Shown here: one piece after another, positions 1 through 53,697 of the stretch
Layout: every line of letters starts with the position of its first letter
How positions within the stretch are numbered: the first letter of the stretch is position 1
DNA from: Agelas oroides
Lineage: Eukaryota > Porifera > Demospongiae > Agelasida > Agelasidae
Direction: 5' to 3'
Length of the DNA stretch: 64,000 nt
NCBI GenBank assembly: GCA_949130485.1
Contig: OX422197.1
Location: 3,416,205-3,480,204 of the forward strand
The notes under the pieces: model-generated
Told to the model about the DNA's origin: nothing
What the model saw: the letters and a program-made list of their open reading frames with translations, nothing else
Databases searched by the model: none
Translations under genes and position numbers: made by a program

Positions 1-317
1 AGATTCACTAAGCTTGTTAACTGCACGGTAAACGGTGAGCTCTACTTTACGAGCCTATTATTAGGCTTTCCGCGCAGACTAGTTGTAGCATGTAAGCCTA
101 TATTTAGGCTTACCGCGCGCAATGAGTTTATGTGACACTTAATTGATGTCTGAGTGAAATTTAGGAGATGTGAAAGTAGCTGTGGTGGACATTGTCGCCT
201 TGAAGTAGAATTTTTTTGTGCGACATTTTCACTTTTGAGAATGCGAAAATATATGAAGGAAAACAGAAAACAGCTGCCATGTTGGTGTACAAGGGGATGA
301 TAGCTTTTATCGCAATC
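1..317. other. Unassigned left edge
   Basis: No gene or clear repeat is recognised. Two short segments around 50-75 and 95-125 both read like 'AGGCTT(T/A)CCGCGCG' and look like a weak local duplication. Confidence 0.3.
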
Positions 318-677
318 TTGGTGCCGGAGGACTGGGAGGACAGTGCGGCTGGCCCTTCACAACATGTGTAATTTGTGGAGTCAAATGCATAAGTGAGTAC
401 TGAACGCAGCTGACGGCTGCCAACTCTGAGAAAAAAAAAGCAAAGAAGTCAGTCCACCGTAGACGCCAAGAGAGCGACAGAAGACCAAGAGTTCAAAAGT
501 AGAAAGCACATATTGGAGATTCTTCACAAGCCAAGTATTTAGGCTCACTCTTCACGTTACCTTTGTTTTGTACTGTTCTTTGGGGTCCCACTAAACGAGC
601 AACACCTGACACCTGCATCATGCGCAAAGACACTGGCACTTGGCGCAGCACGAGGCATCATACGCATGCGTAGTCCT
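318..677. repeat. Dispersed repeat R1, copy 1
   Basis: About 360 bp closely matches 51606-51977 in the same orientation. Shared landmarks are GGACAG.GCGGCTGGCCC near the start, an A-run followed by GCAAAGAAGTCAG, and CATACGCATGCGTA at the end. By eye the copies are roughly 85 percent identical. There is no long shared reading frame, so this may be a SINE-like or MITE-like unit. The family is unknown. Confidence 0.75.
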
Positions 678-1313
678 AGTATATACACCTACCTGTGGGT
701 TTTCAATCTATACCACATGTAGTGCCAATAACATACTGTACACCAAGATGACAGCTCAAGTTTTAGTTTATATGGAATCAATCAGATGGTAAAAATGCTT
801 GATTGCTTTCAGAGGCCATTGAGCACTTCCTAGGCATGACGTGCTTTTAACTCACGCAGACATGTGGACCATTTTGCTGACATGTATAGATCTATTCACC
901 TGTGTATGTATGGACAATCAATGAACCACAACTTCCTGAGAAAAGGCAGATGTTATGCAAAGTCACCCACTGCACAAGCCTCATCAGCATGGGGTGACCT
1001 GGAGACGGGACTGCTATCCCATGAACAAAATTCAGTCAGATGGCTGGCTTTGGCAGGTAGAAGCTCTTTGAACATAGCCTCTCTTTGTGCAGCTGCGTCA
1101 TTAGTCTTGCACCCAGAGCTCCAAAGGAAAGGGTTGGGGTTAGTTTGGAGGGTCGGAGGGGGTCTGGGTTCGAGACTACTGCGTCATGTGTTTGTCAATG
1201 TGTTTGTGCATGCGTGCAGAAGTACGTACCAGAGGTACTGAAAGTACTTATGTGTGTGAATGGCATATTTACCCCCTCGTTGATAACCTCTCTCATAATC
1301 TCTTGACTCCCAG
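678..1313. other. Intron upstream of first visible PSMD13 exon
   Basis: No exon, RNA gene or recognisable element is seen. The open frames here are short and unsupported. The end is the polypyrimidine tract and AG acceptor of the exon at 1314. Confidence 0.4.
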
Positions 1314-1400
1314 GTAAAGAATGACGTGGAGGCCAAGGTGCTATGTATGACGTCCATTGGTGTGATCAAGTTGAAAGGTGGACAACTGGACATCGTGAAG
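1314..1400 (+). CDS. PSMD13: PSMD13 (26S proteasome lid subunit Rpn9), internal exon
   Basis: An 87-nt exon of 29 codons in phase 0/0, bounded by TGACTCCCAG and GAAG|GTACAC. It encodes VKNDVEAKVLCMTS...GGQLDIVK. This aligns with the mammalian PSMD13 stretch VKSSDEAVILCKTA...GDLQVTK, which directly precedes the segment encoded by the next exon found here (27254). PSMD13 is a PCI-domain subunit of the 19S regulatory particle lid and acts in cytosol and nucleus. Earlier exons would lie left of the window. The call rests on three further exons in the right order, strand and phase. Confidence 0.9.
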
Positions 1401-1577
1401 GTACACTCACTGTAGGGTACACATGTACTTACGTTCAATGGTCCTCATAGATCAGAACTGTAAATGGGGAAATTTTAGCAGGAGCCCAGTAATTGTGAGA
1501 TTACAAGTTTTGAAAAACTGAACTATAGGTATATTTACACACATGCATAATGTGCCTCACATAGAGCATGTGGAAAC

Positions 1578-1591
1578 AGCTAAGTTTTTTT

Positions 1592-1624
<33 letters not shown>
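1578..1624. repeat. Poly-T/poly-G homopolymer tract
   Basis: A run of T is followed by more than 40 consecutive G. Such a tract can form G-quadruplexes and is prone to assembly error, so its length is uncertain. Confidence 0.9.
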
Positions 1625-1626
<2 letters not shown>

Positions 1627-2099
1627 AGCATGTAACAGCGGGAAAATGGTGAAGCGCAGTGCGGAGATAAATTCAAGGAGTTTAATAACAAGCTCACCGT
1701 TGATGAGGAGGCTCCCTATAATAGTGCTGGGCTGCCCTTTGCCTTTCTTGACCATGGATGCGGTTATGAGAAGTGTATCAACGATCACTCTGCTACTAGT
1801 GTACAAGTCTTGTTTCTCTGCCGTACAGTGATCTTGTAACAGACATGGACGATTTTTCATTTTGTCTGAGACCAAGTGAGTCTCTTATTGTCCAATTTTA
1901 TTCACAGTTACACTCGTTATTTTGGCCGTGACCTGGTAGTGTACAATATCATGCATTTCAGTCTCTACTATAATTCTATTTCAAGTGTTGAGTCTGTCTG
2001 TGAAGTGGATAACTTGGCACGTACTGGTGCAGATGTTGCATTACCACTGGAATCTCAGACTTACTGTAAAATAATGTTCCCTAGCTCTTTTGTCTGTAC

Positions 2100-2703
2100 C
2101 ATTTCTCTTTACCACTTTTTTGATTTTGTGCAAGTTGAAGCGGGTTGTATTCAGCAACATTTGCTTTGTCATGAAAGAGTCTGTACTGCATCTGCAAAGT
2201 CATCACAGTTTGTGGCCTGCTGTGGAGTACGTTGAAGTAGCATTCGCCAGTCATCATGGTTGAATGTGCCATCTCTAAGTCTGAGAAGTAAGTTTCTGAA
2301 TGCTAGGTTGTCTGAATCAGACCCAGCTTGGTGAAGAACCTGAGTTGACAACGGTGGAAAACAGCTGGTACATGGTGCGAGCATGTACTGCTAAGTGGAT
2401 GCAGTGGAGTATAAAGGTCTGTCACCAACAGGGGGAAGTTGAGCAAAGTCACCAAAGAGACACACCACCAAAAGGAATGTCCAACTGTCCTGTGGCCTGA
2501 CGCAAACGTTTGTCCAGTCATGCCATCATTCTTTGTCCCAACATCGACATTTCATCAATTATGAGGTAAAATCTGTTCTTCATCGTTAATTGCAGCTGGT
2601 GCAGTGAACGACCCTGGAGGTCTCTGTAGCTGGAGGTGCGGACGGGAAGTTGGAGTGTCGAATGCAGTGTTCTGCCACATACAGTGCTCCAAAGCAAGAG
2701 CAA
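2100..2703 (-). pseudogene. Pif1-family DNA helicase fragment (Helitron-like)
   Basis: The - strand shows LHSTLQLPVRTSSYRD (2640-2690) and FYLIIDEMSMLGQRMM. The second is a Walker B / DEMSM helicase motif typical of Pif1-like helicases in Helitron-like elements. After about 170 bp of poorly readable sequence it continues with FRNLLLRLRDGTFNHDDW and NCDDFADAVQTLS (2169-2310), the next conserved block of that family. A TGA at 2518-2520 stands where these proteins usually have Trp (MMAW), and the pieces lie in different frames. This is a decayed middle portion. The Walker A part is absent here, but a separate decayed copy of it lies at 14153-14509. Confidence 0.8.
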
Positions 2704-3178
2704 AACTTTTTGAAATTTTTCAAATTATATACATGTAGTAAGGCCCTCCTATCATCTTATTTACACATATAAACGGTACAAATCATCGTTATTTGCACGT
2801 ACACGGCCTGCGCTATGAGTTTTAGCTTCTCTATATACTTGCCATACTTAAGAAGAGCCGTTGTGATGTCACAGATAATTTGTGATGTCACAGATGTGCA
2901 CTACGATGCCAACAAACCATCAGCCAACTAGAATTTATCATATTCGAACCGAGTATTAGCTAGAAGTTCGGTTAACTAGGCTTCATGGAAAACGTGGCAA
3001 GCTCAACTACAGCTGTTTCTTCTCAGAGCCAACTCACAACTTCCTTGATCACCCAGCAACCAGGAAGTGAGTCCTGGGAGTCAAACAGTACTGTGCAATG
3101 TCAGTAATGTGCGCTCTACCACGAGAAACTGTAAGATTTCATACTCTGCACCTAGAGCCAGTCAATGCGGATCAATTA
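2704..3178. other. Intergenic or intronic filler
   Basis: Nothing coding is recognised. A short direct repeat, TTGTGATGTCACAGAT, occurs twice near 2862-2896. Confidence 0.35.
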
Positions 3179-3240
3179 TGCACCTATCAATGGTATGCCC
3201 CACCTCCCCCTCCTGGGGCAATGGTGGGGACAGAGTAGGG
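3179..3240 (+). repeat. Element A left TIR
   Basis: Begins TGCACCTATCAATGG, continues through a CCCCACCTCCC tract and a second block ending GGTGGGGACAG. It is the inverted counterpart of 10975-11036. Confidence 0.85.
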
Positions 3241-3375
3241 ATTTGCATGCCAACAATTACTAGAACTCCACCCCTAGGGCATCGTTCTCAGGTCAAATCC
3301 CCACCCAATCCCCACCCAATCCCCATGCCTGTCCCCACCCACACACTGCTGGTTGACATACAAAACAGATTTTTG

Positions 3376-6300
3376 TTAATGTTGACAACTCTCACAGATA
3401 TAAACCTCAGGTTCATTGCCTGCTGCAATGCCAACACACACACCATGGAACCAGCAGTCACATGCCTCACAGCCAATCCAAAATTCACATTCCTCTGTTT
3501 CTTCTTCACTTCCCTCACAGTAGCCACAATAGTAGATATCCTCAGTTTCAGCCGCTGGACCAGGAATGGGCTCAGGGTTCACATTAGCTAAAAGAGTAGG
3601 GTTGGAATCAGGTGTAGATGCAGTGGTGTTGGCAGCAAGTCTACGTCTAGTTTCTGCTGCTTTGGCTGCTCCGCGTCTATGATTCAAGTGCACTTGCTGT
3701 AGATGTTCCAGCCACATTTGAACCTCCACTGGAGGGAGCAATGTCTTTTCAGCAATGGCTTTAATATCTGATTCAGTTGGAGTGCTTTTTCTTTTCTTCA
3801 TGGACTGAAAAAAATCTTTCAACATTGCTGAAGGCGGTTTGCACTTCGCACAGGTTTGTTTTTTCAGGCCAACTTCTGGCTTTAAATAATGACCTGCACA
3901 TACTCCATGGCAAGAGGCACAGTTTGGATTTCCCCAAGGCCTACTAGGGTCTGGAACTGGCATAGGAATAGTCTTCACACTAGGGCCACCAGGAAACCAT
4001 GTCATTTCACAAGGAGGCTTTCCAGTCTGACATAAGGGATGTGGGCAATTACCACCATAGCAACAGACAAGCAAGAAAAGGTACTGTGGTGGTAAATCCA
4101 GAACTTGGTGACGGTTCTTAACATTCCACACTTTGTCAAAATAGCTATACAGTGTTGGTTTTTTCCTCCTCAGCTCTTCTTTCTTCTTTTGGCTCCCCTT
4201 CAGAAAGACTTGCAAATGCTGCCTTTGTTCCTGCAGTTCACTCGAATCAGCTCCCTTAAACAAGTGAATCTGAGTGTCCCCACAAGGGCAATGGTTAACT
4301 CGACTGATATATACGTCCATCGCTAGCTCCATATTCATTCAAAGTCTATCTTGGTCAACTGTCCCAGTAGCCTGGTCAATCACTGACCCGCCCAGGGTTG
4401 ATGGGATGAATAGATTTGCATGCCCTCGTGACAAACATCCATTTTGCAATTCTACCCTGTTTAAGTAACTACTGCCACTGCTTCGTGAGTTCAGTAGACT
4501 TGCCATTCTCCCTTCTTCAAGGTGGCGAGCTGTGAACCAAAACTGTACCTCTTCATGTGCAGGACCTTCATCAGTAGCGCCGTCAACTCCCACGCATTCT
4601 ATTAGTTTCTTTTTCCCAGTGTGAGGGTTGATGAAGGCTGGTTTCAGTTCAGTGGCATCAGAAAGCACTTTTAAGTCAGCGTAGTGTTGTGCTGGATTTT
4701 TTGGAAAAATCTTGTGGGCTTTTACAACACCAGCACAGAGTTCTTCAGTTGTTGCAGTTGCAGTAAAATTGTATGAAGACGTCTGAAGTACACTGGGATA
4801 CTTGTTTACATAGTCCGTATGCGTTGTGAGAACAGGATTCCCATCGACAACTGGCTGACTATACTGGCTATGAGTAGCAAGAGTGTCAAGCCTAAAACCT
4901 GACGCATCATCACGGTTCAAGTTGCAAATATTGGTTCCATCTCTATATTGGATCAAGTTGAGTCCCTTATAAAGGGCACCACTCCAATGAGTGTCGGGGT
5001 TGTATCTAATTTCAAAGCCTTTTCGTGCCCTTCGACTCGTCACACGAGCAATCCCCTTGTAGTTCTTCGCCGACCTGTGTCGGCGGTTTCGTGCTACACA
5101 AAGTTGAACGGTGGTACCATATGAAATCTTTTGCCTGTATGTATTCTGAAGATGTTGTTGAATACGTCTGTATGTGGGCTTCTGCTTGACTCTACGGTTC
5201 CCATCAAAGGTGAGAATGCCTGTACGTCGCCAGGCGTCAGCTCCTACGTTGCACTCTTTCACATAATCTTCAATGGTTTGGCCAATGTCTGGGAATTTGT
5301 CGACAATAGTTTTCATACACTTGTTGATTTTATGAGCAAGAAAATTTCTGGAATCTAGAGCCTTTGCTTTCTCTCGCCTTACTTTCCTGGCCAATGCTTT
5401 TCTCTTCTTTGCCAAAACCTGCTGTGTTTTGGCAGATGAAATACTTGAAAGACCAATATAGGATTCTGCATCTTCCACCTCAGAATCGGAGACAATATCA
5501 CCATTCAGAATTGCTGCATCCCTTACTTCATCAGAATGAGGTATAGATACCTTGAAAGCTTCATATGATTGTTGAAGGAGAGCTCTTTCTGAACAACCAA
5601 GGAGAGGCAGTACATGATGGCAGAACTGATCCAAGTATTGTTGTAGACCAACTGCTTCCTTTTCCATGCCACTTTCTTCCTCAACATAATCTACAAGGTG
5701 AAACCAATTGTAGCGGCTGGAGCGCAGGACTTCTTCCAAAGATTCAAAAGGTAAGTGTGCACCAACACCAGTTGTGCCACCTGGTTCGAGAGGTAAGCTG
5801 ACACTAACACCAGTTGTGCCACCTGGTTCGAGAGGTAAGCTGACACCAACACCAGTTGTGCCACCAGGTGTTGTGCCACCTGGTTCGAGTGGTAAGCTGA
5901 CACCAACACCAGTTGTGCCACCAGGTTCGAGAGGTAAGCTGACACCAACACCAGTTGTGCCACCTGGTTCAAGAGGTAAGCTGACACCAACACAAGTTGT
6001 GCCACCAGGTTCGAGAGGCAAGCTGACACCAACACAAGTTGTGCCACCAGGTTCGAGAGGCAAGCTGACACCAACACCAGTTGTGCCACCTGGTTCGAGA
6101 GGCAAGCTGACACCAACACCAGCTGTGCCACCTGGTTCGAGAGGTAAGCTGACACCAACACCAGTTGTGCCACCAGGTTCGAGAGGTAAGCTGACACCAA
6201 CACAAGTTGTGCCACCAGGTTCGAGAGGCAAGCTGACACTAACACCAGTTGTGCCACCAGGTTCGAGAGGTAAGCTGACACCAACACCAGTTGCGCCACC

Positions 6301-7602
6301 AGGTTCGAGAGGTAAGCTGACACCAACACCAGTTGCGCCACCAGGTTCGAGAGGTAAGCTGACACCAACACAAGTTGTGCCACCAGGTTCGAGAGGCAAG
6401 CTGACACCAACACCAGTTGTGCCACCTGGTTCGAGAGGCAAGCTGACACCAACACCAGTTGTGCCACGTGGTTCGAGAGGCAAGCTGACACCAACACCAG
6501 TTGTGCCACCTGGTTCGAGAGGTAAGCTGACACCAACACCAGTTGTGCCACCAGGTTCGAGAGGTAAGTGTGTGCCAACACCAGTTGTGCCACCTGGTTC
6601 GAGAGGCAAGCTGACACCAACACCAGTTGTGCCACCTGGTTCGAGAGGTAAGCTGACACCAACACCAGTTGTGCCACCAGGTTCGAGAGGTAAGTGTGTG
6701 CCAACACAAGTTGTGCCACCAGGTTCGAGACGTAAGCACACACCAACACTGGGGTTCTTCTGAATATTATCACCAATGTCAGAATCCGTATCAGACTCTG
6801 TGGAAGAGATGTCAAGACCCATTGACACAAGTATAGCTCTGTCCTTTATTCTAGCTATAGCATCAATTGCTTCATGAATACTCCGTGCTTCTTGAATAGC
6901 TGCTACTACATGACTGCTTCGAACGTACATCGATTCAAATCCTAACTTCTTCCTTGCAGCAGTTGCGGAAAGCCCAGAAGATTTAAATATAGAGTAACGA
7001 ATTAGCTCTCATTCCCTGTCTGAACATGCCAGGCCCAACAGAGCTTTCACATGTGCTTTGTCAATGGTCAGAGATTCAGATGCTTTGGTAGTTTGCAAAG
7101 CATTCACAAAGCATGCAAACTTCACATAATCAACCCCCTGAACATACTCTACCAAGTACCAAGAAGAGGTTCCCTTCTTCAGACTACCAAGACGGATACA
7201 TGCCAATGGCATTTGAAGTAGTCTCAGCCGAGCAATGTCGGGTTTGTACGTGTGTAAAGGGAATGCTGATCTGTAGGCACTGGCTAACTGGCAATAACCA
7301 TTTGTGGCAACAGACTTTGCAACACTCAACATTGCACTGCACTCGGAGCATGGTTGTATGTGTTTCTCTTGGCAGTAGACTGAACGTGTGTAAATGTATT
7401 CAGTGAGAGACAATGCTCGAAAAAGAGTAACATACACATTTTCTGCTTGCTTCTGATTACTACTACATAATTTCTTTTTGCATTCTTGAGCGTAAGTGAG
7501 CATAAAATCATGTTTGTGCTTTTGAAAATCACTACTGATTTCGTGTGAGAAAGAGAACTTGGAATCAAAGGTGTGGTGCACATAATCAATACGCCTCCCC
7601 AT
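3376..7602 (-). pseudogene. Element A large DDE-like transposase with PHD finger (two in-frame TGA)
   Basis: One frame of 1409 codons from ATG at 7602, interrupted only by TGA at 7009-7011 and 4339-4341. Residues about 1-200 are Cys-containing and unrecognised. Residues about 283-610 are a 14-residue repeat (PLEPGGTTGVGVSL) in about 23 copies. The core follows: PDTHWSGALYKGLN (about 870), DGATDEGPAHEEVQF (about 1005), SGSSYLNRVELQNGC (about 1040), with conserved acidic residues like a DDE nuclease. After the second TGA comes a Cys/His-rich region (CCYGGNCPHPLC, CASCHGVCAGHYL), a short homeodomain-like helix (LPPVEVQMWLEHLQ), and a C-terminal PHD finger (YYCGYCEG...CEACDCWFHGVC...CESC). The frame extends upstream as LAPPPHGISHN and then meets TGA, next to an acceptor-like TTTTTAG. 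The TGAs look like CGA decay. Transposase role is inferred from motifs. Confidence 0.8.
5765..6755. repeat. 42-bp coding minisatellite in element A
   Basis: About 23 units of 42 bp. The - strand reads PLEPGGTTGVGVSL. Because 42 is a multiple of three, other frames on both strands also stay open (for example VVPPGSRGKLTPTP on the + strand). Units differ mainly at a few positions (CCACCTGG/CCACCAGG, CCAGTT/CAAGTT). One partial unit sits near 5860-5880. Confidence 0.95.
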
Positions 7603-7631
7603 GTTGTGCGATATACCATGAGGAGGCGGTG

Positions 7632-10600
7632 CTAAAAATGTAAGTCTGACTCATCTGAGGAGTGCTGACCTTCAACACACATTGGCCCTGCTGAACTGGA
7701 CATGCCACCGTCCTGGCTACTTGGGTCTGCAGAAATTGTTTCTGGTTCATTACCCACTGATTTCTGCAGCTGAAACCTGCGTCCTATGATGGTAACTGGA
7801 CGATGTGAACCTGTGTAAGGAGGGCTCATGACAGTTGCCTCAGATTCTGATGACGCAGAAGCATCACAACTGTAGGACCCAGTGAAACTGGAAAGAGGTG
7901 AAAGAGGTGAAAGAGGTGTAGATACAAATCCAGGAGTTGTTGACTTGCTCCTGCTTGTGGCACTTGCTGTATCAGGAGACTCTGATAGCTTCCTGCGTTT
8001 GACTTCCTGATATCTCTTTGATCTTTTCTCTTTTTTCTTGAAAAACAGCAGCTCTTTCTCATTCTGTCGTTTTGTAGACTTCAACTCCATGATATCTTCA
8101 CTCAGTTGATCACAAAGTTTGTAATTGCGAGCAACCTCCGCCTGCTGACACCTGCTTTCCTTGATCGCAATTCTTCTAGTTAGGTCTACAATTACCTCGT
8201 TCAACTCTGTAACTCTGTTGTCCCGCATTTCTCTGTCGAATTTGGGACGTTTCGGCGTGGGCACTTTGTCCTTCCATGACCCATACATTTTGGAACGAGA
8301 CTTCCCCTTTTTAAAGGTGTAGCTCTCTGAGACTTTCTTTCGAGCCACCTCTAGCAGCTCACCACGATTCCCCTTGCGCACAAGGGCAGGGTTTTGAAGT
8401 GCGAGCTCAACAGCTGCTGCATTGACACGTTCCTGGAAGTCGGTCAGGTTGGCTTTGTGATAAATCAATGCTTGCTCTTTGATCTCTGCTTTCGATTTAT
8501 CACTTATGCCGAGAGGTTTTCGCTCCTAAAATAAGTGACGTACACTGAATAAATAAACTGCCAATAAAACATCTATCTGATTACCAGAATATAGCGGAAA
8601 TGTTTCGCCAAGGAAAATTTCTTCCAAAGCTGGAAGTATAGTATTGAGGTTAAATTTCACCAGGCTTATTTTTGTCGCTTGATCGTTGCCAAAACCCCAC
8701 CCACCAACATATTGCACTTGAAACGTCTTCATACGAGAATTCGTGCTGATTCTTGGTTTGAATCATTACGTTTAGAAGACAGCAGATGCATGTAAATGCA
8801 ATAATTTTCCCCAGTTCAATTTTCACCACTTAAAATGACTGGTGAAATTGGTGCAAATTTATCCCTGGCGAAAAGTTTCCGCTATACAGTAGTAACATTG
8901 TACTGTGTTCAGTGATCACTAAAATTTGAAACATGACCTATCAGGTGAAAGTTCACTAGCATGGAAGACAAACCCATTTTTGGACCTAGTGGCTTTAAGT
9001 GGTGAATGTAACTTGTTCACCCCTACATGTACAAAGGAACTATAAACTCTACTAGTCTCTGCCCAGACCCCATCCAGCTCACGCGAGGAGAAGGGACTGG
9101 TGTCACAAGTCCAAATCCTTGGGCTAGCTCCAGAAGCATGGAGCGGCCAATCAAATCACAGAGCAGCGTTTATTGGAATATTGCGGAAGCGAGAACAAGT
9201 ACTTCAATCATACCGCTCAAAGCGTGTTATGAGATTCATTATCCAACACTGAACAATTTGCAAGGCTTCAAACTTCCGCAAGCCCAAGGATTCAGGCTTG
9301 TGACACCAGACCCTTTCCTCGTGAGAGGGTTGGGTCTGGGCACAAGACTAAAACTCTACACTGACAACAATAATACATAGGAATTTATATTTACACATAC
9401 TTTCTGTAGTGGCTTCTTCACTCCAAGGCCAGACTGGGTTAGAGTCAGTTGTAGTTGGCCACTTGTAACTAGTTGCTCCTAAACAACTAAATTTGATGCC
9501 CAGCAACAACCCCAGGTGTAGGTGTTAAATCGCAACCCATGAAAAATTTGATCTGGTACTACTTGGGTGTAGGGCAGATAATATTCATATTTTCGCACCC
9601 ACTGGATGTTATCACTTACATCTAATCATATTCATGTTTTAGTACTTGCAAGTTTTAGCATGCCTCATTGCTGCACGCATTAAAACACAGAGATGCTGAG
9701 CCGATGTGCTCCTTAAGCAGCATATTACCGTGTATTACGTATACGATGTTTGGCGATGGATCTTGGACACTTCACGGTAGTTTGCAAAATTTTTATTTGC
9801 AACTTTTCGATTATACTCTGATAATCTTCTTCAACCCTGAAGATTATCAGAGTATAATTGAAAAGTTGCAAATAAAAATTTTGGAAACTACCGTGAAGTG
9901 TCCAAAATCCATCGCCAAACATCGAGATGCTGAGACAATGCAGGCTGCTCTGTGTAATAACTATTTTAGCATGCTACATGTACATACCTGTTCTTTGGCA
10001 GGGTGCTCTTCTGGTGCACAAATCTCTTCATGATCCAAGTCCTGCACTTCAATGACAGGCTCAGAGTCACTGATCACCATCGGTACCTAAAGGATTTAAC
10101 ACACAGGGTCATTTACAATAAGTATGCATCTCCTTTCAATCAAATTAAAAGAGCAGGGATTCAAGCATTTTGAGGTCTATTAGGCCACTCCAAAAACTAC
10201 ACTGCCGAGTAATCAACTTGCAGTATTGAACAAATCCGTGAGGCATATGAAATGCATGCAGGAGGGAAATCACTCAACTTTGAGTGGCCTTATAGGCCTG
10301 GGGGAACCCTTCCTGTTTTTTCCGATCGTGTAGTGCACCACAGTGATACTGACCAGCTGTCTAGTTTTGTACATAGTAGAAATCTAATCTCGCCAGGATA
10401 CTTCATGCAAATGCATTGCTTACAGTTTTCGAATTGACAGCAGAACCTCTGACAACACAACCACTGGTACTTGGGGGATCAACCTGAGGGGCAAAGCATA
10501 TTAAAAATAAACTCACATGACTCATATGCATTTCCATTTGTCTGTCAGCCTCAGAATACACAAATATTTGTAGTGTATGAATGTGCCTTCCTCCCACTAC

Positions 10601-10741
10601 CAGGCCATATTCATCTATATATTATAAATTTGTACAGATACTAACCTGAGGCTTCTCCACGATAACCCTAAGAACACTTTTGTCAGGAACTCGATCTTCG
10701 AAATAGTCTACAAACGTGCCACCCCACTCCTCGTCTTTCAT
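7632..10741 (-). CDS. Element A accessory protein, five exons, 393 aa
   Basis: Exons on the - strand: 10646-10741, 10424-10483, 9988-10086, 9401-9433 and 7632-8525. Every intron is GT-AG and every junction is phase 0. The protein starts MKDEEWGGTFVDYFEDRV, continues with VDPPSTSGCVV, an acidic exon (MVISDSEPVIEVQDLDHEE) and SGLGVKKPLQK. The 297-residue last exon contains a basic region (KKGKSRSKMYGSWKDK), a predicted coiled coil (TELNEVIVDLTRRIAIKES to about KKKEKRSKRYQEVKRRK) and a Ser-rich tail ending SSDESDLHF. It has no stop or frameshift. It lies 30 nt upstream of the DDE-like gene, so the two may share a promoter near 10750-10800. I recall a similar coiled-coil protein beside this transposase type in cnidarians. 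A DNA- or transposase-binding role is inference. Confidence 0.8.
8580..8893. mobile_element. Small TIR element in intron 4 of the accessory gene
   Basis: TATAGCGGAAA.GTTTCGCC near 8589 is inverted as GGCGAAAAGTTTCCGCTATA near 8867-8887. The interior is about 310 bp and noncoding. It resembles a MITE, with flanks consistent with TA insertion. Ends are approximate. Confidence 0.55.
9053..9350. mobile_element. 298-bp MITE with 9-bp duplication
   Basis: Begins TAGTCTCTGCCCAGACCC and ends with its near inverse GGGTCTGGGCACAAGACTA. TIRs are about 70 bp. The 9-mer AAACTCTAC flanks both sides (9044-9052 and 9351-9359). It sits in intron 4 of the accessory gene without disturbing exons. The TAG...CTA ends and 9-bp duplication match the TAGCCTCG family further right. 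Confidence 0.9.
9747..9923. repeat. Long hairpin (about 85-bp arms)
   Basis: Near-perfect inverted repeat: CGATGTTTGGCGATGGAT... on the left and its reverse complement on the right, with a loop of only about 6 nt near 9834. AGATGCTGAG occurs just outside both arms (about 9690 and 9927). It lies in intron 3 of the accessory gene and is probably a foldback MITE. Confidence 0.9.
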
Positions 10742-10974
10742 TTGTCTTCGATTTTATCACTGAAAGTTACACGGATTGAAGAAATCAACGCCTCTCACTC
10801 AGAACGGGATCCGCCATCTACTGCAACAACCCGGTTGTAGCTGCCAAGCTGCATCAAGACCTTCTTTGTGCTGTCCATCTCAGCCTCGTGGTCGGGTACA
10901 AAGGTTAATAAATTCAAAATAGCAAATGCAATTAACAATTCCCGACCCCTGGGGCAAGAATTTGGTGAACATCT

Positions 10975-11036
10975 CCCTGTCCTTTCCCCACCTCTGACCC
11001 AGGTATGGGAGGTGGGGCATACCATTGATAGGTGCA
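10975..11036 (-). repeat. Element A right TIR
   Basis: Ends GGGGCATACCATTGATAGGTGCA, the inverse of the left end, followed by TTA. Confidence 0.85.
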
Positions 11037-11374
11037 TTAAGACAGCAGCCTTACTGTTCACCTAGCCGCGCGTTGTGGTTAATGACATCATGAAAGGAAC
11101 GCCCACCCATGATACGTCACTAAAATGGCTGAAAGTTACTGTTTCCACGCAAAAGCGCTCCCATACCTTCCAGGAAGGTTTTTATTCTAAGAAAAGTACT
11201 TGAAACAAAACTTTAACCTATCTAAAAGCCATCTTTCAAGTTAATCCTGTTAACTGGGAGTTTTGTGGCTATACTATGCTAAACACTTTTGCCCCTCAAA
11301 AATCAGTTTTTGTAGATTTTCTTGACAATGCTTGGGAGTGAAGCCTGTTGACTACCCTCATAATGAACAGCACT
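11037..11374. other. Filler between element A and zinc-ribbon element
   Basis: No gene is recognised. The phrase CTATGCTAAACACTTTT at about 11274 recurs at about 12203, either side of the next element. Confidence 0.35.
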
Positions 11375-14509: not shown

Positions 14510-14516
14510 TGTGGAT

Positions 14517-15115
14517 GATTCTACTCCCTTCTACTGATGATTCTACTCCCTTCCACTGATGATTCTACTCCCTTCTACTGATGATTCTACTCCCTTCTAC
14601 TGATGATTCTACTCCCTTCTACTGATGATTCTACTCCCTTTCCACTGATGATTCTACTCCCTTTCTACTGATGATTCTACTCCCTTCTACTGATGATACT
14701 ACTCTCATTCTACTGATGATACTACTCTCATTCTACTGATGATACTACTCTCATTCTACTGATGATTCTACTCCCATTCCACTGATGATTCTACTCCCAT
14801 TCTACTGATGATTCTACTCCCTTCTACTGATGATACTACTCTCATTCTACTGATGATACTACTCTCATTCTACTGATGATACTACTCCCTTTCCACTGAT
14901 GATACTACTCTCATTCTACTGATGATTCTACTCCCATTCTACTGATGATTCTACTCCCATTCTACTGATGATTCTACTCCCTTCTACTGATGATACTACT
15001 CTCATTCTACTGATGATACTACTCTCATTCTACTGATGATACTACTCTCATTCTACTGATGATTCTACTCCCATTCCACTGATGATTCTACTCCCATTCT
15101 ACTGATGATTCTATT
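14517..15115. repeat. 22-23-bp minisatellite, about 27 copies
   Basis: The unit TGATGATTCTACTCCCTTCTAC occurs with variants (ATACTACTCTCAT). Two sub-variants alternate in blocks, which suggests segmental expansion. Confidence 0.97.
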
Positions 15116-15117
15116 CC

Positions 15118-15190
15118 CTGAGTTCAAACTGCACCAAACTCTCCACATCAGAGTGAGTTTGGCCCCTTCGAACTTGATATTACGCCCTAT
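15118..15190. repeat. Spacer related to the satellite right of element C
   Basis: Contains AACTGCACCAAACTCTCC, CAGAGTGAGTTTGGCCCC and TTCGAACTTGA. The same phrases occur two to three times at 22609-22802, in the same orientation. Confidence 0.8.
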
Positions 15191-15197
15191 AGTCTAT

Positions 15198-15330
15198 AGG
15201 GGGAGTAGAATCATCAGTAGAATGGGAGTAGAATCATCAGTAGAATGGGAGTAGAATCATCAGTAGAATGAGAGTAGTATCATCAGTGGAAAGGGAGTAG
15301 TATCATCAGTAGAATGAGAGTAGTATCATC
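15198..15330. repeat. Inverted array of the 22-bp minisatellite
   Basis: About 6 units reading GTAGAATCATCAGTAGAATGGGA, the reverse complement of 14517-15115. The last unit ends directly against the element C TIR. Confidence 0.95.
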
Positions 15331-15585
15331 AGCACTTCCGATTTCAGTGTGGAATTTCCAAAATGGTAAAATGATTGTAAATTTGCTCTATAAAGACATA
15401 TATTGTCAACAACTTGGCCAAACGATGGGTAAAATGGTTTTATCTTATTCAAATCATTCAAGAAGTTTGTTTATGTCGCTCAATTTGATGTAAATATCAT
15501 CTATTTATCAAATTTTTAGAGTTTGAGAAACTTAAATTCAAAATTAATACTTTATCAATCTATTTGTACATTGTTGACAAGGACT

Positions 15586-18500
15586 TCATTGTTCATATAG
15601 CTCCTTCAGTTTGTCCTTAATTTTTAATGGCAGCCTTGGCCGCTTTCCTTCCTTCTGCTTCCATGGGAATGAAAGGACGATGTTCTTAGTGGGGATTTCT
15701 TCCACCCATGGTATGGTCTGTCTCCCTTGCCGTCTGTTGGATGGTTTCCATGCAGTGGTGTAGCTTCCCTCCCACCAGCGGATGCGTGTTGTCTTCCCTG
15801 TTACGTGCTCTGCTTTGCCAATTAGGGGTCGAGTTCTCCACTCACTGTGTGTGAAGGCAACAAACTCTCCCAGGGAAGGCAACTGGATAAAAAAAATATG
15901 GCATAATAGTCATTCGAATTATCAAGTGTATTCCGGCTGTTGAAATTCCAATAGGTCCTGGTCCCAAAGGCTGTTGAAATTTCAATAAGTCCTGGTCCCA
16001 TGCAAGGCTGTTGAAATTTCAATAAGTCCTGGTCGTAAGGCTGTTGAAATCTCAAGAAGTCCTGGTCCTAAGGCTGTTGAAATTTCAATAAGTCCTGGTT
16101 GTAAGGCTGTTGAAATTTCAATAAGTTTGGTCATAAGGCTGTTGAAATTTCAATAGGTCCTGGTCCCAAGGCTGTTGAAATTTCAATAAGTCCTGGTTGT
16201 AAGGCTGTTGAAATTTCAATAAGTCCTGGTTGTAAGGCTGTTGAAATTTCAATAAGTCCTGGTTGTAAGGCTGTTGAAATTTCAATATGTCCTGGTTGTA
16301 AGGCTGTTGAAATTCCAGTGAGTCCTCGTCCTAATGCTGTCTAGTCGTAAGGCTGTTGAAATTCTCGTCCTAATGCTGTCTAGTCGAAAGGCTGTTGAAA
16401 TTTCTAGCCCTAAATCTGTCCATGTCCTATAGTCTGGTAGTACAGACTCAAATACTGTTAACAATGATAGCAGTGTAACTAGAGCTTCAGTAGTGCTTGT
16501 ATTTTATACTGTTGTTCATACCTGAGTCCCCACTTGACAGTGAGCTGTTCTCTGTCTCTTTGTCCTCTCTGACTGCTCTGACCGGGGCGGTTCTGGCTGG
16601 GACTGTTCCGGCTGGGAATGCTCATGAATCCTCTTCCTTCCTTGCCGGGTGTTCTGTCTCTTTGTCTTCTCTTGCTGCTCTGATTGGGCCGGTTCCGGCT
16701 GGGACTGCGCACAGACCCTCTTCCTTCCTTGTCTGGCACTCTGTCTCTTTTGCCTTCTTGTGTCTCCTATGTAAACCTACACAATAAGAAATAAAGAAAG
16801 CCAGTACATACAAGTGTTTAATCACTAATCGAATACAACTCAGATATGATCACTGTAGTAGTAAAACTGTACCTCAGGGATAGCTTGAGTTGATGCAGTA
16901 ACCATCTCAACCAATGGAGTTGGAAAGGAAATAGAAGGCTGGGGAGCTATAACTGCCAATGATCGGTGCAAACTGATTACGTCATTCAGCAACCACACCC
17001 CTGGATCTTGGTGCTGTTGCTCTTGCAGCATTTCGATGAAGGCATCCCACCACAGAATTTCATTGGAAGTTAGCCCTGACTTGGCGTACTTGGGGATGGC
17101 ATTCTGCAGTTTAGGTAGATCCAGCTTGTCAAAGTTGGGAGTGACCAGTACTGGCTCATCATGAGGATCTGACTGTGTAATAGAGCACCAGGTGTACAAT
17201 ATGTAATCCAGAATCATCATCTCCACACTTTATGCACGGATATAATATCTTGGGATTTCTCCCTACACCTGATCACATTTACCTTCAACAGAGAAATTCC
17301 AAGACCTTCCTTAGGCTCCCATTGGTTGTGGTTCCAATGTTTCCACTGCATGTAACAGTGACCATCTCTCCCCTTGATGAATCGAAATATGTGTGGGTTG
17401 GTGTGGTTGTGGAGCTGCTCCATATGAGGCTGGAGCCAGGCCTTGGCATCAAACATTTCTGAGAACAAGCAGCTTCTAGACCCTTTGTTGGCATTCCGAA
17501 GCCCATCCAGCAGTGCTAAGAGTAATAACAAAATATATGACAGGTAATTGTTGGTATGTGGTATGATATTACTGTCACCATGTGCCCGTGACTTACCTGG
17601 GACAGTGAAAGCATCATGTTTCCTTAACCATGTGCTTATGTGACCAAAAAGAGCATCCACATCTTCATGAGTGTGTCCAACCATGAGAAAACCCAACTCA
17701 ATCTGTATGAGTAGAAGAATGTTATGACAACCAATCTTAATGTATACAAGTCACAAAAATCTTCAATATGCTTTGTTGTAGCTTACCTCTTGAAACACCC
17801 CTTGTTCGACTAGGAGTGCAAGGAATGTGAGAACAAACTTGTTCTTGTTTTCTCGCACACAGTTGTCGAGCTGGAGATAGAGCTTTTCTGGGAGACCTCC
17901 ACTCTTGGCAATTTGGGGCAGGTACTCCTTCAGGACTCGCAACAGCACATTGATTGTCAGGTTTGGATCGTGCGGCCATTGTAGGAAGTCCACATATCCT
18001 TCGCTGCCATGGCCATGAACAATCACCCCTGTAATGTGAGTGCGAAGTCGCCATAGGTTGGCTGCTGACTTGTTCACTTTTTTTAGATGGGGCAAACTCG
18101 CTTTGGACTGATCCATGCCATCAATTATGACAGACATGATGCTTGAGTCAGTCTCTGCTCGATTTCAAATATCATGGTAACGCTTTCGCTGTTCCCTGCA
18201 GGAAGGTGGAAGTACATGTAATTTATGCACCACTTCTACCCTTGTTAGGCTCAATAAGCCTTTGCTAACAATGACCAGTTAGGAGGGAGAATATGACACC
18301 TACAGCATACATAAGTAGAATGTTAGTACTCACATCTGTAGAGTGTTGTGATCATTCCTCATCTTCTCCAGTTCAACTTTTCGTGCTGGATTGCTTGACT
18401 TTTCTAGCTCACGATGGATCGTTGAACACACGTCACATTTTGTGAAACGGTTCTCCTGTGGGACAGCAGCAAATTAGGTCATCTATAATTACTGCTATTA

Positions 18501-19921
18501 ATTTCTATTTATAGTGTGTGCATGTGGATGTGCATGTGTGTGGATATGGAGGGGGAGGGGGGTAATCTACAATGTACCTTGGGAATGGTCACGTGACCAA
18601 AATGTGTCTTCCACACATCAAAAAACTGTGACTGGCTGATTACGACACTTTTGCCCCTCTGTTGCAACTCCTCCGTCATGTTCTGATAGATGGAAATCTT
18701 TGACAGGCTACTTGGAAGGTGGATAGTTGGCCTATCTGGCATTCTGTCTCCAATGCGAGTGAAAAAGGAATCCATCCATGCGACAGCTTCAGATGTCCTC
18801 TGGAGAGGCGTCCGAACAACTTGCTGGATGATGCGCTTGTGTCCTTTCAAGAAGAGAGACCGGACATTGTAAAAGTGGGATTGGCTGATGCCTAGTGTCT
18901 TGATCCAAAGTTGGAAGCAGACTCTTTTCCCACAGATGTAGTAGGGGATCTCTAGCTGCTCTCCCGTACCAGAGCTGTTCATCACAAAGTAATCTAACAG
19001 CCACTGCTTCTTTGCGAAAGGAGACAAGCCTGTGAAATGCTCATGGTAGCGTAGGATGTCAGTTGCCAGCAAGTGATGGACGGCACTAGCACATTGTGCA
19101 GAACAACCGTCTAGACAAAGAACTGTAAGGAAGTTCCAAGGCGCACCTGTGCAAAATGTACGTAAGTAGGCAATTTGGCATACTAGATATTTCATGCATG
19201 GGAAGTGCATAAAATTTCACATTCAGGCTCAGGAAAGAGCATAATTATAGGGTCACCTTTGCTGCTGAAGATCTAAAACGATAGCTCAAAATGCTGCCCT
19301 GCGGGATATCATCTAGTCAAACAATACAAATCCACACTAAGCTGTTTGCAATTGGAAAAAGTCTACATACTTTAAGCACACCCACCCCCACTTGTACTGC
19401 AGACAATTATACTGTTATTGCTTACCATTTCTGCTCTCTTCCAAAGTGAGACCACTGTCTTGTAAAATCGAAGACAGGTAGCTTGGGCCTGCTGATCCTC
19501 CAGACAATTCCAGGTCTGCTCTTGATGTCATCATAGGGTAAGTGCCAGTTTGCAGGGTAGCTTCAGCTTCTTTCTTTGGTGTTGAAGTAGTGGGAACAAT
19601 ACAGGAAGATGTGTTTCCAGGCTCAGATTCTTCTACACTGAAGTCGAGTAGCTTAGGCTCAAAATCATCTCGACTGAAGTTCAGTAACACTGGTTCAGAA
19701 CCTTGGGTGAAGTTGAACAGCACCAGCTCAGAATCCTCGTCAGACAGTAGCACTGGTTCAGAACCTTGGGTGAAGTTGAACAACACCGGCTCAGAATCCT
19801 CGTCAGACAGTAGCACTGGTTCAGAACCTTGGGTGAAGTTGAACAACACCGGCTCAGAATCCTCGTCTGACAGTAGCACTGGCTCAGAATACTCATCAGT
19901 CATCTTGGCAGCACTTCCCAA
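15586..19921 (-). CDS. Element C transposase, DDE-type DUF7869-like, nine exons (one in-frame TGA)
   Basis: Exons on the - strand: 19426-19921, 18578-19146, 18334-18455, 17787-18195, 17597-17702, 17283-17515, 16873-17172, 16522-16776, 15586-15882. All introns are GT-AG and all phases agree; the sum is 929 codons. Exon 1 is acidic with three copies of a 21-residue repeat (EPVLLSDEDSEPVLFNFTQGS). Exon 2 has LSPFAKKQWLLDYF and GKRVCFQLWIKTLGISQSHFY. Exon 3 has a KCDVC pair (362-365). The catalytic core shows VIIDGMDQSK (Asp 421), YLQLDNCVRENKN (Asp 506) and VGHTHEDVDALFGHIS (541-556), the hallmark of this family. Exon 8 is basic with two QGRKR-SQPEP repeats. The only defect is TGA at 18165-18167 (codon 406), where CGA is plausible. 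A cut-and-paste role is inferred from the D-D-D/E pattern and TIRs. Confidence 0.85.
15935..16400 (-). repeat. Subterminal satellite of element C, left array
   Basis: About 14 copies of a roughly 33-bp unit, GGCTGTTGAAATTTCAATAA..., within the last intron of the transposase gene. It is the inverse orientation of the right array. Confidence 0.95.
19686..19880. repeat. 63-bp coding tandem repeat, three copies
   Basis: Encodes the acidic 21-residue repeat EPVLLSDEDSEPVLFNFTQGS near the transposase N-terminus. Copies are nearly identical. Confidence 0.95.
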
Positions 19922-20291
19922 TAAATGCTCTGATCATTGTATGAGCCCTTATAATAGTGGCTGTTGAATTATCATCACCCTAATTAGTCACTACATACAC
20001 CTTTGATAGTTGATGTGATGATTAATCACCAAGCATGGTGAGAACTGGCCTTAACATTACTGAACTTCAGAACCTTGAAGTGATGATTAATCACCTAGTG
20101 GTGATAACTGGCCTTAACATTACTAAACTTCAGAACCTTGAAGTGATGATTAATCACCTAGTGGTGGTGATAATTATACCTTCCTTATTTGGTAGTTATT
20201 TACATGATGGTTGTTCAGATGCTTTCAGATCTTCCTATATAATGGTAATCACATTTAAGCTTAAGTATAGCAGTTTTGTCAAGTAGAGAAG
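19922..20291. promoter_or_regulatory. Bidirectional promoter region of element C with palindromic repeats
   Basis: This 370-bp gap separates the two divergent start codons (19921 on - and 20292 on +). It holds three copies of GTGATGATTAATCACC (about 20017, 20080 and 20142), a near-palindrome centred on GATTAATC. They are spaced about 62 bp apart within a tandem unit ending AACTTCAGAACCTTGAA. The layout suggests operator-like binding sites for an element protein or a homeodomain-type factor. Function is inferred. Confidence 0.6.
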
Positions 20292-22434
20292 ATGGCCACG
20301 TGGTATTTGAAGCAAAGCTCCGAAGACAAGTGCATCTATATCTTTCGGAACGGAACCAGAATTACGTCAACTGAGGAAGGAAAACCTCTGGTTGGTTGTG
20401 TTCTGAATGTGCGGCTTGATTATCTCAGCAAGGAGGAAATATTTCTTACGGTAAGTTATTGAGTTTGTGAATACTGTGTATGTCTTATATGGCTGTAATA
20501 TATGTTGGATACATGTGGTAAATACAGCCTAGGGACCCAGGGTGCTTTTGTTATGATTGTAGGATTTCTGGGATGTACTAGTACTAGTCATGTATGTGAA
20601 ACCATACACCCACGCATCATAGAAGCCCAGTACACATGCAGCTGACTGACATCAGTATGCACACTAATGTTGCTTTTACAAACACCACAGTTGCCATGGA
20701 AGCATTGTGTACCCATAGCCTTATAGGGAGCTCTGGGTAGGATTAGCATAGTGGACATTGTACTTGGCCTGTGGTGGGGCTTCTTTGATACACCAACAGT
20801 TACTCATTATGTTCATGATTGTACAGCATACCTGATGATAAGGACAGTGTTATCTTTTCAGTTCAAGGTGCAAGGTCTCCACAAACCAAGAAGTCTCAAA
20901 ATTGAGAGATTTATCAAGGACAAGAACTCGCTTTGTGAGATATTTGCCAATGTACAGAAGCCAGATGAATTCTGTGAAGTTTTCAAGGAGAAGGTGTTTC
21001 CCTACATCAATCCTGAAACTGGGGTGTTCCAACACCCAAGGAAAAGCACAAGTGAGTGATATACAGGATAGTTAGTGAGAGATTCATATGCATGCTGTAA
21101 TGATGATATAGCAGAGATAGTGTTCTTTTCCTAAGTTTGACATGCAGAATTTTTTTTCAGGTGCTACGAAGAGGCCTAATGATTCCAACAGCTCTACTGA
21201 AAAAGCAGCCAAAAGGAAGAGGGCTGAAGTAAAGGCAGACTGTGAAGACATGAATCAGAGAATTCAAGAACACTTTGTTGGTAAGTAATGTCCTTTGAGT
21301 TTAATTGAGAACCAGAGTGGTCACAAATATAGTATATGAATTCAACTCTACCATGTGTCTGGGTGTGAGGTATATATAACATACCTGCTGCCTTCCCAAC
21401 TATTGCAGGCCAATTTTCACTGCCTGTACGTTGTCTGAAGGAACCATCCCCACCAAGGCTCGTTCGTCCTGTAACAGCACAGTTTGTGAAAGAATTGAAG
21501 AAGGAGATGCTAGAAAACCCAACTAGTGATGTTGCTCCCATGATTGGCCTGGTCTTCCTCATCGATGGAGAGCAATTTGACCAACAGCATCCCGAGGCAT
21601 ACAGCTATGAAGTTATTGGGGGCAACAACTCAAGAAAGGCACTGCAGGAGCTAATCGAAGAACATCCTCACTTAGCATCAGAGAAGCTGACACAGGTAAG
21701 ACACACCTTGTAGAGAAGCACCTTTATGGAAACACACAAACACCAGCACATAAATTGCGTGAGCATTAATTGGAATCTGGTTCCCATAGCAACAGGCTTT
21801 CTTATTTCCCAAATTTACTACAAAACTAATACTTCTAGTAAGTAGCTTAGAACTTATTGAAATTTCAACAGCCTTGGGACCAGGATTTATTGAAATTTCA
21901 ACAGCCTTAGGACCATGCAAACTTATTGAAATTTCAACAGCCTTACGACCAGGATTTATTGAAATTTCAACAGCCTTGGGACCAGGATTTATTGAAATTT
22001 CAACAGCCTTAGGACCATGCAAACTTATTGAAATTTCAACAGCCTTACGACCAGGATTTATTTGGAATTTCAACAGCCTTACCACCAGGACTTATTGAAA
22101 TTTCAACAGCCTTACAACCAGGACTTATTGAAATTTCAACAGCCTTAGGACCAGAACTTATTGAAATTTCAACAGCCTTGAGACCAGAACTTATTGAAAT
22201 TTCAACAGCCTTGGGACCAGAACTTATTGAAATTTCAACAGCCTTCGGACAAGAACTTATTGAAACTTCAACAGCCTTTTCTCTCTTTTTGCAGATGAAA
22301 TTACAAGGACAATCTTGAAGACGAAAAGGAATACCATAGCAGCAGGTGCTATGGCACTTGACTTGGAATTGAAAATTGCCAGTTCTAGTGTAGAGAGTGA
22401 CATTGAAGAAGCAGAGGACAGTGTCGAGTATTAA
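20292..22434 (+). CDS. Element C accessory protein, five exons
   Basis: Exons 20292-20450, 20862-21051, 21161-21280 and 21409-21695 join by GT-AG introns in consistent phase, giving 252 codons: MATWYLKQSSEDKCIYIFRN, LDYLSKEEIFLT, a basic mid-part (EKAAKRKRAEVK), FVKELKKEMLENPTSD and MIGLVFLIDGEQFDQQHPEAY. The fifth exon starts after TTTTTGCAG at 22295. Read in phase it ends after seven codons (MKLQGQS). Read in the frame one base earlier it stays open for 46 codons to TAA at 22434 (EITRTILKTKRN...AEDSVEY), with AATAAA just after. An unseen mini-exon or a one-base change at the 21695 junction may explain this. No known domain is recognised. Pairing with the transposase suggests a helper or regulator. 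Confidence 0.7.
21845..22278 (+). repeat. Subterminal satellite of element C, right array
   Basis: About 14 copies of CTTATTGAAATTTCAACAGCCTT... (33-bp, some 30-bp units) in the last intron of the accessory gene. It is the mirror of 15935-16400. Confidence 0.95.
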
Positions 22435-22608
22435 TGTATTGTTTGCTGCGAATAAAAATAAAAGGTTTTCTTCAACTGATTTAATAAAACCATCAATTAA
22501 ACCTGATTGTTTTGATAAACTTTAAGTAATCAAGTTAAATTCTGTCAACAACTAAACCAGAATTGGAAATTCCGCACTGAAATTGGAAGTGCTTAATAAA
22601 GACTGTGT

Positions 22609-22802
22609 TCGGTGTAGTCGAACTGTACCAAACTCGCCATCAGAGTGAGTTTGGCCCCATTCGAACTTGAGAATGCCCCTTTAGACTTTGTTCGGTGTAG
22701 TTGAACTGCACCAATCTCTCCATCAGAGTGAGTTCGGCCCCTTCGAACCCTATATTGCCCCCATTAGACTGAGTTCGGTGTAGTTGAACTGTACCAAACT
22801 CT
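22609..22802. repeat. About 88-bp tandem repeat just outside element C
   Basis: Two and a half units beginning GTTCGGTGTAGT(T)GAACTG and containing CAGAGTGAGTT(T/C)GGCCCC. Related to 15118-15190 on the other side of the element. Confidence 0.85.
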
Positions 22803-23219
22803 CCATCTAAGCCTACTAGGAGACCCCCTACAACGGAGGGGTCGACAAGGAAGGGACCCACAAACTTTTATTGCAAAGAAAGCCTATCAACACAGCAATA
22901 CTATCTGCAGTTTGTTTTGATGTCACAGTACACAAATGAAGTACGCCTCTATTATCCAACAGCGACTCTGGATTACACTTTGAACAGTTTCAAAGTTCCT
23001 TTTGATGATTGAGGTCCGGAGAGCATTGGCATCAACTTCCCTAAAATAAAGGAACAGACACTAAGTAAGATGCCTCCATTAGGTTGGGCAAAGCAGTCAA
23101 TTAGGTTTGACAAGTGAACACAAAGCAAACGGGTATAAATACGCTAAACGGATAGAACTAGGAAAGCCACACCACTTACCTTGTGTGATGAGTTGAGTCG
23201 TAAAGGAGTCATCCTTGTA
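22803..23219. other. Filler
   Basis: Nothing coding is recognised. Confidence 0.3.
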
Positions 23220-52180: not shown

Positions 52181-53697
52181 TCAAAACTTGCTGAAGTCGT
52201 CTATATCTGTTTGGGAAAGTCCAAAAGATGTACTGGAGGTTTGAAATGTCCCACTAGTCATGACTGGCCCAGTGAAGACATTGACTGAACAGCCACTGAA
52301 TGTGAAACTTGGAGGAAGTACAGGTGTACCAGAATTTGCAAACTGTGCAGGAGGGAAAGTAGGACAGTGAATGGTTGGTGCAAGAATATTCTGTTGACCA
52401 AGTGTACTTCTCTTTGGGACTACTTGCTTGTTACTAATGTCAGCAAGGGCTTCACAGGCTTCCCGATGTTGTTCCAAGCCAGGTCGCCCATATACTCTAA
52501 GACTGTCAATGCTCTTGTGGCCAGTTCGGACCTGAATGGTCTTCTCTGGAATTCCATGGTTGTACATTCGAGTAGCTCCTGTTGCTCGAAGGCTGTGATT
52601 GGTTTTTCCACTCATACCAGCTTCAGCAAATATGTCCTTCACCATTCGATCAAGCTTGTTCCATCCAATTGGTACCACGGAATACCATGGTTTCTCAGGG
52701 TCTTCAGGAGTTTTAGGTAGTGGCGTGAAGTAGAAGGCATCTTTCTCTTTGGCCCCTTTAGGCAGTTTCAAGATATAGAAATCAAGTAATCTCACATGGC
52801 AATGGTCTCCAGCACTGGGACAAACAAACTGCCGAACCACTTTATTCTCTCGACGTAGGTCAGCAAGACCTCCACGGAAATCTTAGACCCATACTCGGTG
52901 TACTTCCAGTGGTCATTCTCTCTCTGAAATTGTGAAAGCTTGAGTTCCCTATGTTCTTTCCCACCTCACAGACAAAAATTTTTTCCATTAAGGAAAAAAA
53001 CAGCCCTCACTAGTGCTTTAGGCGAATGGCAACCTAGGATTTGCTGCTCCCAAAGAATGGCCTCTTCTTCTTCTGATATAATTGATGCATGCTTGATTTC
53101 AACTCCTATTCCCTCTTTGTGCAAATTCTGGTAAGTAGTTTCCATTGTCCCATGAAAACACCTAAAACGCACGTCCTTTTTGTCGAAAATATCGAACGGA
53201 TGCCTGTTGGTTTGCCGCATAATACGTTGCAAAGCGCACAAAATGAGATGGATCGTAGCCGGAGGGTACTTACTGCCGTCCTTTTTCCTGAGTTCGATAG
53301 TGAATAAGGATAGCCACTTTGCAAGGCTTTCGGCGTCTTCTGTGTGCAAGATGTCCATAGGACATTTGTCGCTGCAACGTTTGTTGCGTTCAGTGATCCA
53401 CTCAGTCAGAGCCCGCAGAGCCCACTGGTCGTTCTTTTGCGTATTCTTAGGAACGACACCCTTCGACGTCTCCTCCAGGGCTTCAGAAGTGGTCGGGTCA
53501 GCAAACCGCTTAGGACTTTCACCGTTGCACTTTCGCTTCGTCCTAGCAAGCGGTTCAAAATCACTATCGTCTGAGTCCCAGTCTTCCATTCCTAGGGAAA
53601 AATTTTCCTTTATTCTCTTTCTCGTACCAGCAGATGGCGGATACTGGAGCTTCTCCAGCAAACTCTGTGCTACAACGTTAGCCATAGCTGCTAACAA
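52181..53697 (-). pseudogene. Crypton-type tyrosine recombinase, decayed
   Basis: The N-terminal part (52966-53697) starts MLAAMANVVAQSLLEKLQYP and has WALRALTEWITERNKRCS, LAKWLSLFTIELRKKDGS and YPPATIHLILCALQRIMRQT, the SAM-like core-binding region. The catalytic part starts FLNGKNFCL, then TGA (52966-52968) exactly where the first catalytic Arg of LRGG is expected (CGA to TGA fits), then GGKEHRELKLSQF. After a frame change, KTNHSLRATGATRMYNHGIP carries HxxR, RTGHKSIDSLRVYGRP carries GH and the Tyr. This is the DUF3504/Crypton family, the source of ZMYM2/3/4 and QRICH1 domains. It ends at 52181. Confidence 0.85.

Follow-up and report, generated by a model that had tools for sequence, protein, structure and literature searches.

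A 7.3-kb segment of the genome of the sponge Agelas oroides, with ends at positions 15331 and 22593 of the window studied here (the whole 64,000-nucleotide stretch taken from contig OX422197.1), is bounded by terminal inverted repeats (TIRs) and encloses two divergent spliced genes, one of which encodes a protein of the Pfam family DUF7869 (PF25273). Taken as a whole, the segment is probably best explained as a eukaryotic DNA transposon of the cut-and-paste type, present as a single and apparently defective copy; it would belong to a poorly described group with DUF7869 proteins, and a protein of its own would bind the satellite arrays found in its introns. A family of unassigned function thereby gains a definite setting, an element that has ends, a second gene and candidate binding sites, in which a transposase role becomes testable; the placement of the arrays in the element's own introns also provides a test of end-binding and gene control as a single event, which is a familiar theme in En/Spm. 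The surrounding window is eukaryotic in character, with spliced genes and pieces of a DUF3504/QRICH1 recombinase at 52-54 kb.

The minus-strand protein matches the DUF7869 profile over residues 432-624 (E 7.4e-70, 234.9 bits, profile positions 1-191 of 192), passing the curated cut-off of 26 bits. All eight introns of its gene are GT-AG and their phases are consistent, which confirms the nine exons proposed in an earlier sequence-only reading of this DNA. Because the Pfam match crosses the E4/E5 and E5/E6 junctions, and a tblastn alignment of residues 279-548 to a distant relative (L013, see below) crosses E2/E3, E3/E4 and E4/E5, four of the eight junctions (E2/E3 to E5/E6) are supported by homology; the remaining four were placed by frame and splice sites alone. 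Exon 9 stays open for 98 codons, which in sequence of intron composition would happen by chance with a probability of about 0.0014, and 12 of the 13 exons scored in the two genes are free of stops in the predicted frame, the exception being minus-strand exon 4 with its single TGA. Codon usage distinguishes exons from introns without picking the frame, and a second open frame is present in three of the 13 exons; it should be noted that the background for these scores was the short introns, so that the scores of the short introns themselves are partly circular. Counted from the first ATG, the gene runs for 922 codons including the TGA, not for 929 as first counted, before it reaches its stop. 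Given this in-frame TGA, the copy cannot make a full-length transposase as read and is not autonomous. For the present copy, the TGA and a possible off-by-one in its plus-strand gene count against the description as autonomous or recently autonomous.

We read the minus-strand protein as a putative DDE-type transposase. Three clusters of acidic residues, and also E505, are common to all three sequences compared (the window, L013 and L015); the second D is separated from E539 by 38, 37 and 37 residues, a DDE-like spacing. On these three sequences the clusters are consistent with what a DDE enzyme would show. The label of DUF7869-like DDE protein, given on first inspection, thus stands for DUF7869 and is indirectly favored for DDE by acids shared among three distant sequences. 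Upstream, the exon 2 stretch that we read as C...C plus helix-turn-helix (HTH)-like aligns in all three sequences and includes C10, C14, C76, W80, G85 and S87 among 11 invariant columns; its pairwise matches are weak (E 0.09-0.19).

The two relatives came from a scan of bacterial and archaeal genome contigs with a degenerate pattern for GHTHED[I/V/M]D, which hit 15 places, two of which encode relatives by tblastn: L013 (E 8e-25) and L015 (5e-17). DUF7869 is matched by L013 at 5.8e-23; on L015 one piece alone gives 0.0092, below the cut-off, and another part gives 52.9 bits. Both contigs are filed under Bacteroidetes metagenome bins. Among 395 genomes drawn from that phylum the family was detected in one, G001 itself, and it was detected in none of 14 controls. 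L013 carries, within positions 1-5162, an open reading frame (ORF) beside DUF7869 that we read as gag-like. Since the family is found in no other of the 395 genomes and L013 has this gag-like ORF, both contigs are probably eukaryote contamination.

The bounding repeats are 31 bp long and identical at 29 of 31 positions, with the sequence AGCACTTCC[G/A]ATTTCAGTG[T/C]GGAATTTCCAA. With the listed tandem repeats masked, inverted pairs with 27/31 or more identities and a spacing of 1-20 kb occur in three places of the window, of which the element's TIR is one, whereas the best inverted pair in 10 first-order Markov controls reached 25/31; this is a better control than an earlier random-pair test, in which 3 of 19,868 pairs scored as high. 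The proposal that TIRs bound two divergent spliced genes is borne out by these ends and by the exons. The termini read CAC..GTG, with the inverted repeat extending 2 bp beyond them (AG..CT). The tip AGCACTTCC occurs four times in the window (822, 15331, 19910 and 22585), and the copy just upstream of the minus-strand gene is possibly an autoregulatory site, or there by chance. The sequence TGTCAACAAC is present only twice in the window, at 15404 and 22543, close to the left and to the right end of the element and on the same strand.

The second gene, on the plus strand, has four clear exons encoding 252 aa. The fifth exon of the sequence-only reading fared less well: after the acceptor at 22295 it adds in frame only MKLQGQS, seven codons, and then a stop, and the longer frame there is off by one. 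AATAAA motifs at 22451, 22457 and 22483 follow shortly past the end of that longer frame, and the satellite-bearing intron is flanked by a good donor and acceptor; the short exon 5 could be either a frameshift or the true end. Exon 4 gave no significant match in NCBIfam or PDB and a structure prediction with a predicted local distance difference test (pLDDT) of 45; a suspected resemblance of this exon to ParB was not supported. The shared promoter of the sequence-only reading would lie in the 388 bp that separate the two ATGs; this region has TATA-like sites on both sides (20236 and 19949), and the 63-bp repeat of this region carries TGATTAATCA three times (20019, 20084 and 20147).

Table 1. 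Features of the element, in window coordinates.
Feature	Position	Strand	Details
Left TIR	15331..15361	+	29/31 to right end; controls <=25/31
Right TIR	22563..22593	-	Inverted pair with left end
DUF7869 gene, nine exons	15586..19903	-	GT-AG introns, phases, Pfam match, tblastn to L013 and L015
DUF7869 gene, exons 1-5	19903-19426, 19146-18578, 18455-18334, 18195-17787, 17702-17597	-
DUF7869 gene, exons 6-9	17515-17283, 17172-16873, 16776-16522, 15882-15586	-	Stop 15588-15586
Exon 2, C...C plus HTH-like stretch	18578..19146	-	Authors' reading
In-frame TGA, exon 4, codon 400	18165..18167	-	Inside the stretch aligned to L013
Candidate catalytic core, D415, D500, E539/D540/D542	17597..18164	-	Identical in window, L013 and L015
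Left satellite array, 14 units	15935..16420 (approx.)	+	Inside last intron of minus-strand gene (16521-15883)
Right satellite array, 13 units, inverted	21849..22278	-	Inside last intron of plus-strand gene (21696-22294)
Second gene	20292..22318	+	Exons 20292-20450, 20862-21051, 21161-21280, 21409-21695 (252 aa), then 22295-22318
Alternative last-exon frame	22295..22434	+	Off by one from exon 4; TAA 22432-22434
Divergent region, 388 bp between ATGs	19904..20291		TTATAA 19949, TATATAA 20236, 63-bp repeat
TIR-tip copy AGCACTTCC	19910..19918	+	6 bp upstream of minus-strand gene ATG; spotted post hoc

A 33-bp satellite in mirror orientation was described for the last intron of each gene, and the two arrays are indeed there, with 14 and 13 units in opposite orientation. 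The introns that hold them measure 639 bp (minus strand) and 599 bp (plus strand), and the other ten range from 81 to 411 bp. Each array carries the 12-bp palindrome TTGAAATTTCAA, which occurs 20 times in the 64 kb, nine times in the left array and 11 times in the right, and nowhere else. For a comparison of units we took 12 of the 14 on the left and 12 of the 13 on the right (odd or partial units dropped, one trimmed), with per-position counts made on the 18 of these 24 that have a length of 33. Every position of the palindrome is kept in 17 or 18 of the 18 units. Most of the remaining unit is kept equally well, with change concentrated at positions 20, 21, 23, 26 and 29-31, and because nearly the whole unit is conserved alike, the palindrome is not singled out by conservation, a point against a binding role. 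The mean distance between units is 4.13 within arrays versus 4.42 between them, a difference equalled or exceeded in 210 of 5000 label shuffles. Together with a unit type that the two arrays have in common without any change, this points to a shared recent origin or to exchange.

The array fits as a candidate protein binding site, and a mechanism can be sketched on the model of CACTA (En/Spm) elements. The DUF7869 protein would act at the TIRs as a DDE transposase of RNase H fold, and one of the element's proteins (either the second one, or the first through its basic tail) would bind the satellite and assist the pairing of the ends, the part that TNPA plays in En/Spm. By analogy with TNPA such binding is a reasonable proposal: in the portions of PMC2613891 drawn on here, TNPA binds the subterminal repeats, transposition depends on it, and it both blocks RNA polymerase and controls the element that encodes it; an excerpt of a soybean CACTA study (PMC4219821) suggests that repeat binding of this kind keeps introns from being spliced. 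As the arrays lie within the element's own introns, binding would limit both transcripts, hindering their elongation or splicing and so acting as a negative feedback.

It is quite possible, although we lean somewhat the other way, that the element is a transposon whose satellites have no binding role, the arrays having grown by slippage and being shared through gene conversion or foldback. This reading leaves the transposon side of our preferred explanation intact, and it accords with units nearly as alike between arrays as within them, with conservation that is not confined to the palindrome, with a window rich in tandem repeats (46 overlapping rows) and with a captured satellite array reported for a CACTA element in the part of PMC8978399 consulted. 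What such neutral arrays leave unaccounted for is the symmetric subterminal placement in both last introns and a palindrome intact in 20 copies.

Several results weigh against the transposon with array binding itself. At seven boundary offsets the search for a target site duplication turned up nothing beyond a 2-bp GC at a single offset, and a second TIR comparison gave none of at least 3 bp; a group lacking such duplications, Spy, is described in the text available from PMC4482050. A 23-bp satellite at 14514-15332 forms two inverted blocks around a piece of an 83-bp repeat (also at 22600-22807) and abuts the left end of the element, and the right flank is this 83-bp repeat, which has a relative within the left flank too; for these reasons the insertion site may be rearranged. 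No second copy turned up in the collections searched, among which the host genome was not included. The TIR, the core protein, the plus-strand protein, the 33-bp satellite, the DNC.RENKN motif and alignment A1 retrieved no relatives as queries, nor did a protein motif scan of viral contigs. On the L013 and L015 contigs the plus-strand protein has no match at E 1e-5 and none among the matches listed at E 10, and the inverted pairs listed there are all unlike the element's TIRs (the contigs are short and their other ORFs not annotated). Searches of Pfam, PHROGs and PDB with this protein gave nothing significant, and it has no recognised domain. As to the transposase, D415 sits 17 residues ahead of the Pfam match, which leaves the first D outside it; acid conservation is that of three sequences, in which the third acid is not pinned down; the exon 4 core, predicted without an alignment, reached a pLDDT of 43; and PDB yielded no significant relative, the best profile match there (E 0.49) being judged chance. 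No AATAAA or ATTAAA was found 3' of the minus-strand gene within the element.

A further alternative is that the element belongs to a named superfamily, as an offshoot of CACTA, Mirage, Chapaev and Transib (CMCT), a Kolobok or another, and bears a DUF7869-type transposase. We consider this unlikely. In its favor are CAC..GTG within AG..CT, the subterminal repeats and the two genes, and CMCT elements mostly share CA..TG termini according to the sections of PMC12730594 used here. For the interval from the second D to the last E, the same sections give C(2)C and H(3-4)H as the marks of CMCT, and the corresponding text of PMC9587614 gives C/DxxH as that of hAT/P/MuDR/Kolobok/Dada; between D500 and E539 the minus-strand protein has none of these motifs, and within 250 residues of D500 it has neither CxxC nor C/DxxH. 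The only H(3-4)H motifs both lie past E539, as H(4)H (592) and H(3)H (599), and would be relevant to a third acid placed beyond that residue. Pfam gave no match to another transposase family up to E 1, or up to 5 in a second scan (HMMER filters drop most weak matches), and the lack of a target site duplication of at least 3 bp also speaks against a named superfamily. The opposite and boldest proposal is that an unnamed superfamily of eukaryotic DDE transposons has DUF7869 proteins as its transposases, and that the lineage seen here bears its end-binding sites as mirrored palindromic satellites in the last introns of its two divergent genes, so that its end-pairing protein throttles both of its own transcripts; this we likewise regard as unlikely. 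A new superfamily is not proven. A literature search with Repbase outside its scope yielded no mention of DUF7869, PF25273, an InterPro number or the four protein motif strings tried, and in literature listings neither titles nor the openings of abstracts named a DUF7869 element.

That these are instead two host genes, ordinary or domesticated, which happen to be divergent, with the inverted repeat and the satellites incidental, is very improbable: the missing target site duplication and second copy, the spliced structure with mostly small introns and the single nonsense codon would suit such a pair, but 29/31 TIRs just outside both genes versus at most 25/31 in controls, the in-frame TGA and the mirrored arrays of one unit, present nowhere else in the window, would not.

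The window holds other sequences that resemble mobile elements. A further inverted-repeat element occupies 3178-11037 (inner 31/31, arms 54/64), with TTA on both sides if its ends are set 1 bp inward, and encloses minus-strand ORFs at 3376-8525; these include a PHD-like finger, which stays below the Pfam cut-offs, and a coding tandem repeat of 42 bp. The segment 59841-61473 has 1.4 kb between two inverted arms, which are about 120 bp long and match at 116/123, and resembles a miniature inverted-repeat transposable element, and the minus strand at 52181-53700 holds Crypton-like tyrosine recombinase pieces (DUF3504, QRICH1, Phage_integrase).

Among the closest known systems is Pfam DUF7869 itself, whose profile the minus-strand protein matches almost completely; Pfam assigns this family no function, and here the gene for it has TIRs on either side and a second gene as its neighbor. 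PIF/Harbinger-ISL2EU (PHIS) elements likewise combine a transposase with a second, presumed DNA-binding, protein (PMC4482050, in part). The second protein here differs in having no Myb/SANT or YqaJ match in Pfam, there is no 3-bp target site duplication, and no other Pfam transposase matches the minus-strand protein (from Pfam only). Some Kolobok lineages also encode two proteins and have 5'-RR..YY-3' termini, as the text at hand of PMC9587614 indicates, and TTAA follows ..GGAAGTGC on the right of our element; its left flank, however, is ATCA, C/DxxH is lacking and the second protein has no Pfam family. As far as the library contains them, neither a KDZ transposase profile nor a tnp2-type profile (Transposase_21) gave a match up to E 1. 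Compared with CACTA/En-Spm of the CMCT clade, the element differs in that its genes are divergent and not alternatively spliced, its 33-bp units lie inside introns, no target site duplication was found, and the stretch ahead of the candidate for the third acid lacks C(2)C and H(3-4)H; in its two proteins, mirrored subterminal repeats and CAC..GTG-like termini it is similar, and the two may work alike.

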